Positions 20,651 through 51,506 of a stretch of 64,000 nt of DNA are shown here, piece by piece. The DNA is from Hassallia byssoidea VB512170. GTDB taxonomy: Bacteria; Cyanobacteriota; Cyanobacteriia; Cyanobacteriales; Nostocaceae. The position numbers and the translations under genes are program-made. The stretch is from NCBI RefSeq assembly GCF_000817785.2, contig NZ_JTCM02000023.1:1-64000 (forward strand), given 5' to 3'. Under the pieces are notes generated by a model that was not told the origin of the DNA, ran no database searches, and saw nothing but the letters and a program-made list of their open reading frames with translations. How positions within the stretch are numbered: the first letter of the stretch is position 1; every line of letters starts with the position of its first letter.

Positions 20651-21310
20651 ATGAATGAGGCATTTTCGTTAAACTTCACCCATGCGTTGCAAAACTTAAT
20701 GCAACGTGTGGGTGTTTCTAGTTTTAAAGCTTTGAGTCAAGCTGCTGGTGTTTCAGAGCGGCAAATTTTGCGGTTGCGACGGGGAGAAGTTCAGCAGATG
20801 CGAGTAGATGTACTGCTCAAACTATCGCAAGTGTTACAGATGCCGTTGAGTGAATTGATCGCAACTTTTTCTCAGGTGGAGTTGGTGAAAGAGAATGCAT
20901 CAAATCAAGAATTGTTACAACAAATAACGAATTTAAAAACAGAGTATCAGCGATCGCTTCTGCAATTAGAACAACAGCGCGAAGTATTGCAGCAAGAGTT
21001 TCAGCAAACAAGTTTGCAATTGCTAGAGTCTTTGTTATTGCAATTTCCCACCGCAGCACAGAAAGCGCAAGAGAATCCGCAGCTTGCAGCGGTAAAAATA
21101 TTGCCTTTAGTACAAAAACCTTTAGAAAAATTATTACAACAATGGAAAGTGGAAGCGATCGCACCCGTGGGAGCTGAATTATCCTACGATCCGCAGATAC
21201 ATCAATTGATCGAAGGCACAGCACAAATCGGCGAAAAAGTCAAGATACGTTATACAGGCTACCGTCAAGGTGATAAGCTGCTTTATCGAGCGAAAGTCAG
21301 CCCAGTTTGA
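20651..21310 (+). CDS. HTH and GrpE-like head fusion protein
   Basis: A 219-residue protein in three parts. Residues 1-75 resemble a Xre/Cro-type helix-turn-helix (FKALSQAAGVSERQILRLRRGEVQQMRVDVLLKLSQVL start and end). Residues 80-140 are a glutamine-rich coiled coil. Residues 155-219 resemble the beta-domain of GrpE (EAIAPVGAELSYDPQIHQL, then GEKVKIRYTGYRQGDKLLYRAKV), which in GrpE contacts DnaK and drives nucleotide exchange. GrpE also has an N-terminal coiled coil, so this looks like a GrpE paralog joined to a DNA-binding domain. It could couple chaperone state to transcription; that is inference. Confidence 0.72.
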   Translation: MNEAFSLNFTHALQNLMQRVGVSSFKALSQAAGVSERQILRLRRGEVQQMRVDVLLKLSQVLQMPLSELIATFSQVELVKENASNQELLQQITNLKTEYQRSLLQLEQQREVLQQEFQQTSLQLLESLLLQFPTAAQKAQENPQLAAVKILPLVQKPLEKLLQQWKVEAIAPVGAELSYDPQIHQLIEGTAQIGEKVKIRYTGYRQGDKLLYRAKVSPV

Positions 21311-40987: not shown

Positions 40988-42667
40988 ATGGAAACTTATG
41001 ATGTAGTTATTATCGGTGCAGGACATAATGGGCTGGTTTGTGCAGCTTATCTGTTAAAAGCTGGTTATAGCGTATTGCTACTAGAAAAGCGTTCTGTTCC
41101 TGGTGGTGCAGCGACAACTGAAGAATGTATACCAGAAGCACCGGGTTTTAAATTTAATCTCTGCGCGATCGATCACGAATTTATTCACCTCGGTCCGGTT
41201 GTTCAAGAATTAGAATTAGAAAAATATGGCTTGGAATATTTAGAATGCGATCCAGTTACATTTTGTCCCCATCCCGATGGCAAGTATTTCTTAGGACATA
41301 AGTCTTTAGAAAAGACTTGTGCAGAAATTGCCCGTTATAGTGAAAGAGATGCCAAAAAGTACGCAGAATATACAAAATACTGGCAGCACGCGCTAGGGGC
41401 AATGATTCCCATGTTCAATGCACCACCAAAGTCAGTTTTAGATATTCTGGGCAACTATGATATCGCCAAGTTGAAAGATTTATTTTCTGTCATTGGTTCC
41501 CCATCGAAAACGCTGGACTTTGTTCGCACCATGCTAACCAGCGCTGAGGATATCCTCAACGAGTGGTTTGATTCAGAATTTCTCAAAGCACCCCTAGCAA
41601 GACTTGCGGCAGAACTCGGTGCCCCACCATCACAAAAAACGATCGCCATTGGTGCAATTATGATGGCAATGCGTCACGACCCAGGTATGGCTAGACCTCG
41701 CGGTGGTACTGGCGCACTCGTGCAAGCTTTGGTTAATTTAGTTACCAGCAAAGGCGGCGTTATCCTCACAGATCAGCACGTTGATAAAGTGATGATTGAT
41801 GATAAAAAAGCTGTTGGTGTACGGGTTGCCGGTGGCAAAGAATATCGCGCTAAACACGGCGTAATTTCTAACATCGATGCCAAACGGTTATTTTTACAAA
41901 TGACCGATAAAAGCGATATTGATGCAGTCGATCCAGATTTATGGGAAAGATTAGAACGTCGTATTGTTAATAATAATGAAACTATCCTGAAGATAGATTT
42001 GGCTTTAGATGAACCGCTACGTTTTGAACACCATGAACACAAAGATGAATATTTGATTGGTTCTATCTTAATTGCAGATTCCGTGAGACACGTTGAACAA
42101 GCTCATAGTAAATGTACCTTGGGAGAGATTCCCGATTCTGACCCATCGATGTATGTAGTAATGCCTAGCGCGTTAGATCCATCATTAGCACCACCGGGCA
42201 AACATACAGTATGGATTGAGTTTTTCGCACCCTATCAAATCGCCGGCGCAGAAGGCACAGGTTTGAAAGGTACCGGTTGGACTGATGAATTGAAAAACAA
42301 AGTCGCAGATAAAGTAGTTGACAAATTGGCGCAGTATTCACCTAATGTGAAAAATTCAATTATCGCCCGTCGCGTCGAAAGTCCAGCCGAATTAGGTGAA
42401 AGATTGGGCGCGTACAAAGGGAATTATTACCACGTTGATATGACCCTAGATCAAATGATATTTTTCCGTCCCTTGCCAGAAATAGCGAATTACAAAACGC
42501 CAATTGATAATCTCTTTTTGACTGGTGCGGGAACTCATCCAGGTGGTTCAATTTCTGGGATGCCGGGACGCAATTGTGCGCGGGTATTTTTGCAGGCAAA
42601 GCATCCAATTACTCAGACTTTGAAGGATGCGCGGGATTCGATTCTGTCAACGTTTAAGATTAATTAG
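40988..42667 (+). CDS. crtO: CrtO-type carotenoid ketolase, copy 1
   Basis: CrtO is the FAD-dependent beta-carotene ketolase of the phytoene-desaturase-like family, making echinenone in cyanobacteria. The 559-residue length agrees. The N-terminal dinucleotide motif is VVIIGAGHNGLVCAAYLL followed by VPGGAATTEE; the downstream CAIDHEFI, SPRD-like and NEWFDSEFLKAPLARL segments match Synechocystis CrtO; the C-terminal motif is LTGAGTHPGGSISGMPGRN. A closely related copy lies at 49812. The leader TTGCAATTATGGAA is shared by both copies. A terminator follows immediately. Confidence 0.9.
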   Translation: METYDVVIIGAGHNGLVCAAYLLKAGYSVLLLEKRSVPGGAATTEECIPEAPGFKFNLCAIDHEFIHLGPVVQELELEKYGLEYLECDPVTFCPHPDGKYFLGHKSLEKTCAEIARYSERDAKKYAEYTKYWQHALGAMIPMFNAPPKSVLDILGNYDIAKLKDLFSVIGSPSKTLDFVRTMLTSAEDILNEWFDSEFLKAPLARLAAELGAPPSQKTIAIGAIMMAMRHDPGMARPRGGTGALVQALVNLVTSKGGVILTDQHVDKVMIDDKKAVGVRVAGGKEYRAKHGVISNIDAKRLFLQMTDKSDIDAVDPDLWERLERRIVNNNETILKIDLALDEPLRFEHHEHKDEYLIGSILIADSVRHVEQAHSKCTLGEIPDSDPSMYVVMPSALDPSLAPPGKHTVWIEFFAPYQIAGAEGTGLKGTGWTDELKNKVADKVVDKLAQYSPNVKNSIIARRVESPAELGERLGAYKGNYYHVDMTLDQMIFFRPLPEIANYKTPIDNLFLTGAGTHPGGSISGMPGRNCARVFLQAKHPITQTLKDARDSILSTFKIN

Positions 42668-42810: not shown

Positions 42811-43149
42811 ATGATTGGACGCAAAGGCTTTATATATATTTTTTCCAATCCGGCTTTTCCCAATGAGTTAAAAATTGGGAAGACAACAAGAACTCCAGAA
42901 GAAAGAGCAAAAGAATTATCAGGCACTGGTTTGCCAGAAAGATTTATTGTAGAGTATTACGAATATGTTTTTGATTGTCATTTCTGTGAAAAAATTATAC
43001 ACAAAAATATTGATGAATATCGTCATAATAAAAGACGAGAATTTTTTAAATTACCTCTTCAAGAGGCAATATTAAAAGTTCAAGAAGTAACTCAGGGTAA
43101 AATATATCCTCAAAGGAAAATTAATAAATATATACATAGATTAAATTAA
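42811..43149 (+). CDS. GIY-YIG nuclease family protein (T5orf172-like)
   Basis: A 112-residue single-domain protein. GFIYIFSNPAFPNELKIGKTTRTPEERAKEL contains the family's paired I-Y-x(10-13)-K-I-G-x-T core, the diverged GIY-YIG form of the T5orf172/Mug113 group, followed by EYYEYVFDCHFCEKIIH and RREFFKL. Proteins of this group occur in phages, plasmids and mobile islands; activity is assumed to be nucleolytic. The next gene starts four bases after the stop, so they form an operon. AT-rich codon use fits a recently acquired segment. Confidence 0.8.
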   Translation: MIGRKGFIYIFSNPAFPNELKIGKTTRTPEERAKELSGTGLPERFIVEYYEYVFDCHFCEKIIHKNIDEYRHNKRREFFKLPLQEAILKVQEVTQGKIYPQRKINKYIHRLN

Positions 43150-45647: not shown

Positions 45648-46559
45648 ATGAAAACACTACTAACACTTTTTAGCGAAGAACGCAACCAACTCCAGACAGA
45701 TATTGACAAAATAATCAGTGTCGAGCAGGTAGTTAAGCTGGTTCAGAACCGACTCGATAATTTTGAAAGAATTTACATCAGCGAGTTAAATGTCGCTCAA
45801 GTACGTTTGGCTTCCTTTTTTTTGGATACGCTGCGGCAGTCCATTGCCACTCTTGCTGCGGCTAACTTTCCTCAAGTTGCTCCCACAGAGCAAAAGCAAA
45901 TTATTAACCAAACTACTAAGTTTTCCCCTAACAGGTTAATCCTAAAACTGCTAAAGGGACTAATTTATATAGGCATTTTAGGTTCGTTGTTTTCCTTAAC
46001 TAAAATTAGCCCTTTTGCATGGATGGCTATCTTGCTAACCTCTGTGCTTCTAGGGCTGGAAGTTGTGCTTCAACTCGACAAAGACAACCAGGAAAATAAT
46101 TCATCTGAGCTATTAAAATTACCCCAACCTATTCTACGGGTTGATAGCAAAGTCCTTCTAGATAACCTTGCCGATGCTCTCAACACGATTGACCTAGCAG
46201 TCGCTAGAGTTAAAGAAGAAAACAAAAATGAAGACGATCGCAGCATAGAAGAACTGCCAGAGTTATTGAATTTTATTCAAAGGCTAATGGGTGCATCAAA
46301 ACTTGATAAACCAGAAATGACGATCGCACTAACGAAACTTCTGCCACAAATTTTAATGGAGCAGGGAATTTTTGCTCAGATTTACCGACCAAACGAACCC
46401 GATAGCGATCGCGAGTATTTTGACTTCGAGCCAAGTATCGACCCTGACAGCAAAGATTACGTGACTATAACTCCCGCTTTATTGAAAGGCGATCGCTTGC
46501 TCAGACGCGGACGGGTAATTGAGCCAGCGTCCACGCCAATAACCGAGAATAACAAATAA
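45648..46559 (+). CDS. Hypothetical two-TM protein paired with an Hsp70-like ATPase
   Basis: A 303-residue protein with no recognised domain. Residues 1-75 are helical (LTLFSEERNQLQTDIDKII). Two hydrophobic segments (about 103-118 and 123-142) form a membrane hairpin, with FSLTKISPFAW between them. The remaining 160 residues are charged and cytoplasmic in character, ending in a Pro/Thr-rich tail (VIEPASTPITENNK). Its stop is seven bases before the next start, so it forms an operon with the Hsp70-like gene. The constant pairing of a membrane-hairpin protein with an ATPase that also has a membrane hairpin suggests a membrane complex. Function unknown. Confidence 0.65.
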   Translation: MKTLLTLFSEERNQLQTDIDKIISVEQVVKLVQNRLDNFERIYISELNVAQVRLASFFLDTLRQSIATLAAANFPQVAPTEQKQIINQTTKFSPNRLILKLLKGLIYIGILGSLFSLTKISPFAWMAILLTSVLLGLEVVLQLDKDNQENNSSELLKLPQPILRVDSKVLLDNLADALNTIDLAVARVKEENKNEDDRSIEELPELLNFIQRLMGASKLDKPEMTIALTKLLPQILMEQGIFAQIYRPNEPDSDREYFDFEPSIDPDSKDYVTITPALLKGDRLLRRGRVIEPASTPITENNK

Positions 46560-46566
46560 TAAGAGT

Positions 46567-48498
46567 ATGTCTATTTTAAAAACATTAGAAATAATCGGTT
46601 TTGATTTGGGACACGGTGAAACAGCTGTAGCTAAAGCTATAGTGGAAAGCATCGAACCCCCAGAGATGCTTGAGATTAATAATAAGAAGAACCAAATTAC
46701 CGCTCTTGGTTGGCATCCCCAACTCGGTTATCTTGTTGGAGAACAAGCATTAATTCAAGCTGGTGTTACAAGCTTGAAAATTTCTTTCAAGCAAAAACCA
46801 AACAACGATCCAAAATATCGAGAAACAATTACCACTTTTTTAGCAACCTACTACCACCTTTTGAAAGAAAGCAAACAAATTGAAGGTGGAGAAAGTAACT
46901 ATTTTTACGTTGGTTGCCCTTCCGGATGGTCTGTTAGCGAACGAGAAGAATACCAAAAGTTACTTCAAGAAGCTGGCATTCCCCATCTGAATGTTGTACC
47001 CGAATCGCGGGCTGCTTTCATGCAAGCCAAGGAAGCCGGTAAGCTGGAGTATGACAAACTCAAATCATCAGTACTAATTGTCGATATTGGCTCTTCGACC
47101 ACAGATTTTACCCTGGTTAAGAGCTTACATGAAGTCCCGATAGATTTCGGAAGTAACGCTTTGGGAGCATCTTTAATTGACAAGGCTATTTTTGCCCGCA
47201 CTGTTGCCAAACACGAGCAATCATCCTTACTAGAAAAAGTATTTGCCCAATATCCACATCACCAAGCTCGTTGTGAACTTGCTTGCCGCAAAGCTAAGGA
47301 AGATTACTTTTCTAATGAACAGCTATACAGCGATCCTGAATCTTTTGCGCGTGGCTTTGAATCTATTAACGAACAAATTTATTTTATTCCCCAAGTTAAT
47401 AAATTGATTATGGAGGAAATATTGAACCAACCTTTACCCCAATTAAGGGAAAAAAGTTGGATTCAATCATTTAAAGAAGCTGTCACCGAGGCAAAAGAAA
47501 AGCTGGACAAACAAGACATCGTGCCGAAACTTGTGCTGATGACTGGGGGTGCATCTCGCATGAAGTTTACGCACCAAATTTGTCAAGAAATGTTTAGCGA
47601 ACCAGAAACGCTTCTTCGACCCGATCCGGAACCAGAACGGTGTATTGCGCTGGGTTTAGCGCGAGTAGGACGATGGGATCTGCGTGCCACTGCTTTCAAA
47701 CAAGAAGTCAACAAATTATTTGACGAAAACTTGCTCAAAAATCTGATTGAGAAACATATCCCGGAGTTAATTCAATCGTTAACTAAACCGTTAGCAGATG
47801 ATTTGATTGAAAACGCAGTTAAACAAAATTTAAAAGACTGGCAGAAAAACAAAATACGAACTTTAGCCGATTTGGAAATATCTATGAAGAGTCGGGCAGA
47901 GCAGTGGTTAATAAGCGATCGCGTTCAGCAGATAATTAACAATCAATGCACTTCTTGGTTTAACAATAAAATCCAACCCGACTTAGCCGCAGAAACCGAC
48001 CCAATATGTCGAAAATATCAGATACCTAGAAGCAGTTTAAGATTTGAAGATAGTATTGATCCAACTTTTGTCAACCCAGAATTACGAATTGGAGATGCTA
48101 TCCTTGCCGACACAGTGGCGTTTATCGTTAATGTAGTAATTGGTGGAGGCACTATCGCTAGCATCATCACTCTAATACTAACCGGACACTTGACTTTGCC
48201 TATTGCACTGGTGTATGGAGCTTCAGTAATGGCAGCAGGAATGGAGCTAAATCGCAAAAGTGTCAAAGAGGCAATTAAGACAAATATTGATGTCCCCAGT
48301 TGGATGCGTTCTACTTTTTTGAGCGACAGGAAAATTGACGATATGTGCGTTTCAATAAAGCCTGAATTAGAGAAGGTTTTTCGAGAACAACTGACAGCTA
48401 ATCAAGAGGCTTTTGACCAACTGATTGAGAAAGTTGGGCAAGGACTGCAAAAAGCTCTTTCCACGAAGGTTGAAGAGGCAATAATTCTGATTCAATAG
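46567..48498 (+). CDS. Hsp70/actin-fold ATPase with C-terminal membrane hairpin
   Basis: A 643-residue protein. Residues 5-370 form an Hsp70-like ATPase: phosphate-1 loop GFDLGHGETA (11-20), connect segment VVPESRAAF (143-151), phosphate-2 loop IVDIGSSTTDF (171-181) and adenosine motif LVLMTGGASRM (322-332), followed by RCIALGLARVG. No normal substrate-binding beta domain follows. Instead there is a helical region (about 375-510) and two hydrophobic segments (515-539, 542-559, rich in Gly and Ile), then a charged C-terminal tail. This resembles neither DnaK nor HscA; related uncharacterised Hsp70-type proteins occur in cyanobacteria. The membrane hairpin and the membrane partner upstream point to an ATP-driven membrane process. 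Confidence 0.78.
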   Translation: MSILKTLEIIGFDLGHGETAVAKAIVESIEPPEMLEINNKKNQITALGWHPQLGYLVGEQALIQAGVTSLKISFKQKPNNDPKYRETITTFLATYYHLLKESKQIEGGESNYFYVGCPSGWSVSEREEYQKLLQEAGIPHLNVVPESRAAFMQAKEAGKLEYDKLKSSVLIVDIGSSTTDFTLVKSLHEVPIDFGSNALGASLIDKAIFARTVAKHEQSSLLEKVFAQYPHHQARCELACRKAKEDYFSNEQLYSDPESFARGFESINEQIYFIPQVNKLIMEEILNQPLPQLREKSWIQSFKEAVTEAKEKLDKQDIVPKLVLMTGGASRMKFTHQICQEMFSEPETLLRPDPEPERCIALGLARVGRWDLRATAFKQEVNKLFDENLLKNLIEKHIPELIQSLTKPLADDLIENAVKQNLKDWQKNKIRTLADLEISMKSRAEQWLISDRVQQIINNQCTSWFNNKIQPDLAAETDPICRKYQIPRSSLRFEDSIDPTFVNPELRIGDAILADTVAFIVNVVIGGGTIASIITLILTGHLTLPIALVYGASVMAAGMELNRKSVKEAIKTNIDVPSWMRSTFLSDRKIDDMCVSIKPELEKVFREQLTANQEAFDQLIEKVGQGLQKALSTKVEEAIILIQ

Positions 48499-49811: not shown

Positions 49812-51506
49812 ATGGAAGCGTATGATGTTGTAATTATTGGTGCCGGACATAACGGTTTAGTTTGCGCCGCATATCTACTTCAAGAAGGATACAGCGTTTT
49901 GCTACTGGAATCTCGTTCAATTCCCGGTGGTGGTGCGACAACTGAAGAACTTATGCCTCAAGAAGCGCCTGGTTTTAAATTTAACCCCTGCGCGATTAAT
50001 CACCTATTTATTTTCCTAGGACCAGTAATTCAAGAATTAGAATTGCACAAATACGGATTGGAATATTTGGAATGCGATCCGGTGGCATTTTGTCCTCATC
50101 CCGATGGCAAGTATTTCTTAGCACATAAATCTGTAGAAAAGACTTGTGCAGAAATTGCCCGTTATAGCGAGAGAGATGCTCAAAAATATGCAGAATACAC
50201 TGAATTTTGGCAAAGATTTATAAAAGCGGTTAGACCGTTTTTCAGTGCAGCACCCAAATCAATTGTAGACATTGTTGGTAGCTACGGTCTGAAAAATTTG
50301 CCAGATTTGTTTTCAATTCTTGGCGGTACTAACACCACCCTAGATTTAATTCGCACGCTTCTCGGCAGTCCGATAGATAATATCAACGAATACTTTGATT
50401 CTGAGTTTGTCAAAGCACCCCTTGCTAGACTATCCGCAGAACTAAGTTCCCCTCCCTCGCAAAAAGCCATGTCTTTCGGGGCGATGATGATGGCGTTGCG
50501 TCATAACCCAGGTATGGCACGTCCTCGCGGCGGTACGGGCGCACTCACGAAAGCTTTGGTTAAATGCGTGACAAGTAAAGGCGGCGTTATTCTTACCGAC
50601 CAAAAGGTGGAAAAAGTCTTAGTAGATAACGGTAAAGCTGTCGGTGTAAGGGTTGCTGGTGGCAAGGAATATCGCGCTAACAAAGGTGTAATTTCCAGTC
50701 TTGATGCCAAGCGGTTATTTTTGCAACACATTGATCCAGGTGATGTGGATACTGCTGATGCAAATCTGCGAGAAAGATTAGACCGTCGCATTGTCAACAA
50801 CAATGAAACCATCCTGAAAATTGATTGTGCTTTATCTGAACCGCTGCACTTTGAACATCACCAACACAAAGATGAATACCTGATTGGTTCGATTTTGATT
50901 GCAGATTCGGTTAACCATGTGGAACAGGCACATAGCGAGATTACTCTGGGCAAAATTCCCGATGAAGATCCATCGATGTATGTGGTGATGCCTACAGGAC
51001 TCGACCCTTCAATGGCACCTGAAGGCAAACATACGCTGTGGATTGAGTTTTTTGCCCCTTATCAAATCGCCGGTGCAGAAGGGACGGGATTAAAGGGTAC
51101 CGGTTGGACGGATGAATTGAAAAACAAAGTTGCAGACAAAGTGTTGGATAAACTGGCGCAGTATTCGCCCAATTTGAAACATTCAATTATTGCCCGTCAT
51201 GTGGAAAGCCCTGCTGAATTGGCGCAACGTCTGGGGACTTACGGAGGAAACTATTACCACATCGACATGACTTTAGAACAGATGCTGTGCTTCCGTCCGC
51301 TGCCGGAAATAGCTAATTATAAAACACCGATTGATAATTTATATCTGACTGGTGCGGGAACTCATCCAGGGGGTTCGATTTCTGGTTTACCGGGACGCAA
51401 CTGTGCGCGGATGTTTTTGCACGATCGCCAACCTGTGTCACAGTCTCTCAAAGATGCAGGAGATTCTCTCAAGTCTACTGTTGCATCTGTCTTGGGGCGG
51501 GGATAA
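49812..51506 (+). CDS. CrtO-type carotenoid ketolase, copy 2
   Basis: A 564-residue paralog of crtO copy 1, closely similar along the full length, with the same VVIIGAGHNGLVCAAYLL start, VRVAGGKEYRA and YLTGAGTHPGGSISGLPGRN segments. Differences fall at otherwise conserved places: IPGGGATTEE where copy 1 has VPGGAATTEE, and CAINHLFIFLGP where copy 1 and Synechocystis CrtO have CAIDHEFI. An extra 10-residue C-terminal tail is present. It may be a ketolase with altered substrate range, or a desaturase-like enzyme. A large palindromic repeat follows the stop directly. Confidence 0.88.
   Translation: MEAYDVVIIGAGHNGLVCAAYLLQEGYSVLLLESRSIPGGGATTEELMPQEAPGFKFNPCAINHLFIFLGPVIQELELHKYGLEYLECDPVAFCPHPDGKYFLAHKSVEKTCAEIARYSERDAQKYAEYTEFWQRFIKAVRPFFSAAPKSIVDIVGSYGLKNLPDLFSILGGTNTTLDLIRTLLGSPIDNINEYFDSEFVKAPLARLSAELSSPPSQKAMSFGAMMMALRHNPGMARPRGGTGALTKALVKCVTSKGGVILTDQKVEKVLVDNGKAVGVRVAGGKEYRANKGVISSLDAKRLFLQHIDPGDVDTADANLRERLDRRIVNNNETILKIDCALSEPLHFEHHQHKDEYLIGSILIADSVNHVEQAHSEITLGKIPDEDPSMYVVMPTGLDPSMAPEGKHTLWIEFFAPYQIAGAEGTGLKGTGWTDELKNKVADKVLDKLAQYSPNLKHSIIARHVESPAELAQRLGTYGGNYYHIDMTLEQMLCFRPLPEIANYKTPIDNLYLTGAGTHPGGSISGLPGRNCARMFLHDRQPVSQSLKDAGDSLKSTVASVLGRG

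Follow-up and report, generated by a model that had tools for sequence, protein, structure and literature searches.

Two adjacent genes, here called A and B, in a 64,000-nucleotide window of the Hassallia byssoidea VB512170 genome (the whole stretch of DNA that we analysed, positions 1 to 64,000 of contig NZ_JTCM02000023.1, to which the coordinates of A and B refer) encode what we consider, with moderate confidence, to be a dedicated two-protein membrane device, consisting of an Hsp70-type ATPase with a membrane arm (B) and an anchored GrpE-like exchange factor (A). This reading is supported by computation: the ATPase domain of B has an Hsp70 fold, no substrate-binding domain can be recognised in B, A contains a part remotely like GrpE, both proteins carry hydrophobic hairpins, and the two genes co-occur almost perfectly. 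An initial annotation of this DNA had described a two-segment protein of 303 residues starting 7 nucleotides before an ATPase of 643 residues, and the open reading frames (ORFs), which lie on the same strand with exactly this spacing, confirmed it; the two hydrophobic segments that it assigned to A also stood, and the GrpE-like part was what it had overlooked. Because A has this part, we regard the pair as an ATPase and its probable exchange factor and not merely as two membrane proteins. The features of the locus are as follows.

45648..46559, + strand: gene A, ORF of 303 residues with a helical N-terminal part, two hydrophobic segments and a GrpE-like C-terminal part
45936..46070, + strand: A residues 97-141, predicted membrane hairpin (97-115 and 123-141), from Kyte-Doolittle hydropathy
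46140..46535, + strand: A residues 165-296, GrpE-like helices and beta-wing, from Foldseek, VIA and hhalign
46567..48498, + strand: gene B, ORF of 643 residues, Hsp70-type ATPase with a helical membrane arm
46567..47700, + strand: B residues 1-378, Hsp70-fold nucleotide-binding domain, from Foldseek, VIA and hhalign
47701..48093, + strand: B residues 379-509, helical stalk replacing the linker and substrate-binding domain (helical in the model, linker pattern absent)
48094..48285, + strand: B residues 510-573, hydrophobic hairpin (520-538 and 541-559), from Kyte-Doolittle hydropathy, with low model confidence
48325..48495, + strand: B residues 587-643, returning helices (587-611 and 613-642 in the model)

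Neither protein belongs to a family that Pfam reports above its cut-off, and the NCBIfam rows for both lie far under theirs. PDB sequence searches with the queries A2 and A3 yielded weak, unrelated-looking matches alone.

The ATPase domain and arm of B

The three nucleotide motifs that had been noted within the first 370 residues of B were found at residues 12–18 (FDLGHGE), 173–180 (DIGSSTTD) and 326–330 (TGGAS), and each of the three patterns is present in all 80 of the 80 B homologues at loci L031–L110. A structure predicted from a 44-sequence alignment, with a mean predicted local distance difference test score (pLDDT) of 82.5 and a predicted template modelling score of 0.74, has an ATPase domain that extends to about residue 378. 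When this model was used as a Foldseek query, 549 PDB matches were returned at E<=0.001, the best of them DnaK and the next ones other Hsp70 ATPase domains, and among the 50 matches listed by VIA-align the Hsp70-looking structures aligned with Z scores of 28–31 over 327–342 residues. Comparison with 30 cyanobacterial DnaKs by hhalign covered B residues 8–385 (probability 94, P = 1.3e-7); D13, E146, D173 and T178, which are invariant in 44/44 sequences, aligned with DnaK positions that we take to be catalytic, and the phosphate-1 loop reads GHGE in B versus GTTN in DnaK. The Pfam HSP70 model (PF00012) gave no row at E<=1 for the B of the window and gave such rows in 11 of its 44 relatives, the best at 1.4e-7. 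We concluded that the N-terminal domain of B has the Hsp70 fold, as supported by these computations.

Beyond this domain, the model of B consists of helices at 387–483, a low-confidence hydrophobic stretch at about 510–573 and returning helices at 587–642, the last with pLDDT blocks of 78-88 starting at residue 591, and after residue 352 no strand is as long as 3 residues. The hairpin is the weakest part of the model, with pLDDT <50 at residues 528–532, 536–538 and 540–562. The Hsp70 interdomain linker pattern matched 0 of the 80 B proteins; as it matched only 19 of the 30 DnaKs that served as a positive control, the pattern misses about one-third of true linkers. Comparison of the C-terminal part of B with the DnaK substrate-binding domain by hhalign yielded a probability of 0.2, with no similarity. 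Together, the model and the profile comparison support the view that B is without a recognisable substrate-binding domain, which agrees with what the initial annotation had proposed, and no ordinary domain of this kind turned up in the model, which has a helical arm and a hydrophobic hairpin in its place.

With a 19-residue Kyte-Doolittle window, the hydropathy maxima are 2.22 (520–538) and 1.42 (541–559) in B, the second of which is merely moderate, and 1.91 (97–115) and 2.21 (123–141) in A. The same arrangement recurs at loci L031–L110, where the best and second segments score at least 1.74 and at least 1.55 in 78 A proteins and at least 2.02 and at least 1.09 in 78 B proteins (2 short ones of the 80 were left out). 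A profile comparison between the hairpin of A and the arm of B gave P = 7.7e-4. The hairpins on which the prediction that both partners sit in the membrane had been based are thus there in both proteins, and insertion itself is something that we infer. Each hairpin would place the two ends of its protein on one side of the membrane, presumably the cytoplasm, which the ATPase domain and the wing would then face.

The GrpE-like part of A

What is new here is the GrpE-like part of A, by virtue of which this protein is most likely a nucleotide-exchange factor of B that is anchored in the membrane. The top Foldseek match of the A model was the Thermus thermophilus GrpE 3a6m (probability 0.98, E = 0.086), on which VIA placed A residues 202–297 with a Z score of 7.1 over 91 residues and a root mean square deviation of 2.9; by the guidance for this program, a Z score of <8 is not convincing by itself. 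Profile comparison used a wide GrpE set of 34 rows, made up of 10 of 29 ordinary cyanobacterial GrpEs and 24 other proteins from the same genomes. Against this set, the C-terminal part of A aligned over residues 169–291 with P = 1.8e-4 and a score of 32.5, versus maxima of 24.7 for 200 block shuffles (shuffling within 10-column blocks), 18.9 for 59 control families and 17.1 for the reversed profile. After two ORFs that are not GrpE-like had been removed, leaving 32 rows, the match covered residues 200–291 with P = 4.7e-4 and a score of 30.1, above 200 of 200 block shuffles, the highest of which reached 28.9 and the next 20.7. In addition, A has 25 invariant residues, of which 14 fall within 232–296 (hypergeometric p = 8e-5, with the region picked once the match had been seen). 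Taken together, the fold, the profile and the gene context make a good but not conclusive case for a remote relation to GrpE.

Elsewhere in the window, positions 20651-21310 (+ strand) encode a protein of 219 residues in which a helix-turn-helix part is fused to a GrpE-like one; it has rows for both, passes the GrpE cut-off of 25.8 bits with 27.5 and has kin in relatives. Is it a GrpE-like regulator?

If A and B work as this architecture suggests, the ATP/ADP switch of B would drive a helical, membrane-inserted arm without any peptide-binding domain. The C-terminal wing of A may bind B and open its nucleotide-binding domain, leading to ADP release, much as the wing of GrpE opens the Hsp70 ATPase domain in solved complexes according to passages of PMC12987570; ATP rebinding would then reset the arm in the membrane. 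The output would be a nucleotide-gated change at the membrane, such as assembly, tethering or shaping, rather than the folding of soluble clients.

Pairing of A and B in cyanobacteria

The pair is carried by many filamentous cyanobacteria, including many Nostoc species. A lies upstream of B at 78 of 80 genome loci, and the pair is conserved, with a median gap of 14 nucleotides; 49 of the 78 gaps are <=20 nucleotides (one pair overlaps), 10 are 21–100, 18 are 101–500 and one, at L067, is 2776 nucleotides and holds two unrelated ORFs between an A and a B that are both kept. At the loci without an adjacent A, B either starts 217 nucleotides from a contig end (L093) or has the coordinates of contig C162 of G541 (L070), a genome that keeps both genes on separate contigs, with A on contig C19.

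Genome-wide searches gave the same picture. In a phylum sample of 386 genomes, B matches occurred in 15, one of which (G185) is a DnaK, and A was found in exactly the remaining 14; in a sample of 217 Nostocaceae genomes, 128 have B and 127 of these have A as well, with A matched in no other. Homologues that occur singly had been named as evidence against a functional pair: no genome in either sample has A without B, and B without A was seen in G003 alone, where the genome is 54% complete and a contig edge cuts B down to 44 residues. These searches score just first-look candidates, so that absences are not proof, and the pairing counts track lineages and are not independent events. In some genomes just a fragment was matched, of A in G006 and G546 and of B in G003, G006, G546 and G556, and in G554 B is in two pieces.

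The B proteins of the 128 family genomes comprise 87 of the window type, 35 of a divergent type and 6 that are other or partial, and no family genome among the 128 has both main types at full length. The divergent group keeps the pairing, at 36-38% identity for B and 26-37% for A, as do three further variant loci. One of these, L131 (2274-5507, - strand), encodes a B of 1078 residues in which a tandem pair of Hsp70-type ATPase domains precedes a single membrane arm; another, L130 (2623-3177, + strand), has a hydrophobic ORF of 185 residues, without an NCBIfam match, between A and B. The third, L132 (1732-4705, + strand), holds the most divergent pair, with an A that retains glycine-rich segments. 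At L134 (3287-6197, + strand), B is interrupted by an ORF of 277 residues and A is reduced to a 32-residue match in that genome; this is a decaying copy. On a Calothrix plasmid (L081, 7021-7892, + strand), A is split into two overlapping matches next to an intact B, probably by a frameshift.

Weighing the explanations

Several observations count against the reading of A and B as an ATPase and its anchored exchange factor, beginning with the fact that binding of A to B and exchange of its nucleotide are themselves predicted. As a whole, the A model is of poor quality (mean pLDDT 59.3), and within its C-terminal part just residues 241–290, where most of the strands lie, reach pLDDT blocks of 73–79, the block at 291–300 falling to 59. 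Ordinary GrpEs failed to give a significant match, either with the whole of A against the 29 cyanobacterial proteins (P = 0.057, with 8 of 200 column shuffles as high) or with its C-terminal part against the same set (P = 0.032, not significant), and for this reason the set had to be widened with atypical GrpE-like proteins. Cleaning of the widened set then weakened the match from P = 1.8e-4 to 4.7e-4, with one shuffle (28.9) close to the real score, and the wing alone did not clear its null, at 22.7 versus a shuffle maximum of 22.8. The A of the window matched no Pfam family, and GrpE was absent among the best 25 of 67 Pfam families for 43 aligned A members. Nor are the hairpins uniform: the A proteins of the divergent group have weaker segments (1.1-1.75) that are rich in glycine, and the B of L132 is without a hydrophobic hairpin. 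Lastly, A is broken next to an intact B in G426 and G529.

The nearest rival is a membrane-bound chaperone, in which B and A would handle membrane-protein clients, with the arm replacing the client-binding domain and perhaps a separate J-protein; we consider this possible but doubtful. An Hsp70 fold with a GrpE-like partner is what it would lead one to expect, and DnaK-type chaperones do act at cyanobacterial membranes, where passages of the respective papers describe DnaK3 as binding thylakoid membranes (PMC7281324) and DnaK1 as acting at type IV pilus motors with DnaJ3 and GrpE (PMC9239167), the latter also stating that a Nostoc punctiforme strain has 5 annotated homologues of DnaK and one of GrpE (2022). 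Like DnaK and GrpE, A and B combine an Hsp70-fold ATPase domain that keeps its catalytic residues with a partner that has GrpE-like helices and a wing. They differ in that the linker pattern (0/80) and any recognisable substrate-binding domain give way in B to a helical arm bearing a membrane hairpin, in that A has hydrophobic segments too, and in that the two are encoded as a dedicated pair. The arm, modelled without strands of 3 or more residues and matched to the DnaK substrate-binding domain at a probability of just 0.2, speaks against a client-binding role, as does the neighbourhood, in which no further gene family exceeds 24 of 80 loci.

It seems unlikely that B is a dynamin-like membrane remodeller, in which the Hsp70-type ATPase would replace the GTPase and a trunk/paddle arm would use the turnover of ATP to deform membranes or tether them. 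B resembles the bacterial dynamin-like protein BDLP in having a nucleotide-driven head, a helical trunk, a membrane tip and returning helices, the order of head, trunk and tip being that given in passages of PMC2862293. By hhalign, the C-terminal part of B matched two dynamin-like groups (P = 2.8e-4 and 3.9e-6) with scores of 39.2 and 52.9, each above 60 of 60 column shuffles, and a wider C-terminal profile scored 42.8 and 51.5 against the same number of groups, with 59 control families (maximum 23.6) and reversed profiles (24.3) all lower. With a profile of 31 dynamin-like proteins, the best 25 non-dynamin rows listed were all A or B proteins, and a full-profile dynamin hidden Markov model (HMM) gave 26 real B arms a mean of 14.0 bits versus a shuffled 95th percentile of 10.1. 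Most of this margin was lost with block shuffles and with searches limited to the trunk, and we therefore kept the dynamin reading merely as a rival: 10-column block shuffles (n = 100) reached 47.1 versus a real dynamin-arm score of 50.8, and with a trunk-only HMM real B arms averaged 7.0 bits versus a shuffled 95th percentile of 9.1, with unrelated neighbourhood ORFs reaching up to 12.4. Moreover, five other dynamin-like groups (9 proteins) did not match the arm, neither the PDB nor 59 genomes gave a recognisable dynamin row when searched with the arm profile (in the genomes, five short and weak rows were left unexamined), and Pfam gave no dynamin row for B, whose head is an Hsp70-fold ATPase and not a GTPase. 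The layout and composition that the arm of B shares with the BDLP trunk and paddle are real, with common descent a possibility. In A, the N-terminal part scored 25.2 over 20 columns against one dynamin-like group (controls up to 16.8), and VIA matches to dynamin stalks (Z 6.8 and 6.4) were taken as generic helical similarity. The version of this rival that takes in both proteins, an Hsp70-powered remodeller with an ATPase instead of a GTPase on a dynamin-like arm and the GrpE-like factor as its membrane-anchored partner, we likewise think improbable; if it were true, turnover of ATP, not GTP, would shape or tether cyanobacterial membranes.

That B is a membrane-tied, actin-like filament ATPase of the MreB/ParM/FtsA type is very unlikely. 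These proteins belong to the same ATPase superfamily and give weak sequence matches to B, including MreB (1.4e-5) and the phage partition family phrog_691 (7.2e-9); among 44 members, rows at E<=1 were obtained for MreB_Mbl in 25, ParM_N in 40 and HSP70 in 11, and an Mbl model stands at Foldseek rank 44 with a similar E-value. The fold search nevertheless puts Hsp70 first, the VIA Z ranks look Hsp70-type among the 50 matches listed, with others possible, and the partner of B is GrpE-like, whereas GrpE serves Hsp70s and is not known to serve actins.

Highly improbable, finally, is that A and B belong with the neighbouring Xis and nuclease genes to a defence island or to a set that maintains a mobile element, a role that the initial annotation had raised and that we set aside because no shared neighbours and no database matches were found: at E<=1 PADLOC listed neither A nor B, B had no match in the phages or viral contigs searched, neighbours vary among loci, with XisH or XisI matches near the pair at 3 of 80 and the most frequent neighbour family besides A and B at 24 of 80, and B is present in 128 of 217 family genomes, against which stand one B match in plasmids, on a plasmid predicted to be conjugative, and a patchy presence at one site within the genus. 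At that site, G001 has A and B between two oxidoreductase genes, presumably of carotenoid type, and G002 keeps both flanks with A, B, a methyltransferase gene and the second oxidoreductase gene replaced by an ORF of 339 residues and has no B match elsewhere in its genome, so that the description of the segment as accessory holds.

In the window itself, the variable segment with A and B lies between two related oxidoreductase genes, presumably of carotenoid type (40988-42667 and 49812-51506, + strand), whose DNA is about 76% identical when matched across genomes. Positions 42811-43149 (+ strand) encode a stand-alone T5orf172 (GIY-YIG-type) protein with PADLOC matches to PDC-S57 models.

An Hsp70 and its GrpE are usually viewed as a folding machine with a domain that grips the client. 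No earlier description of a pair such as A and B appeared among the literature matches listed. If A and B are an Hsp70-type ATPase and its anchored exchange factor, an Hsp70 switch can power something besides client folding, with the grip dropped and both proteins at the membrane, in a pair that is common in one bacterial family. The wing of A would then be expected to bind B and to exchange its nucleotide, and both proteins to localise to the membrane.

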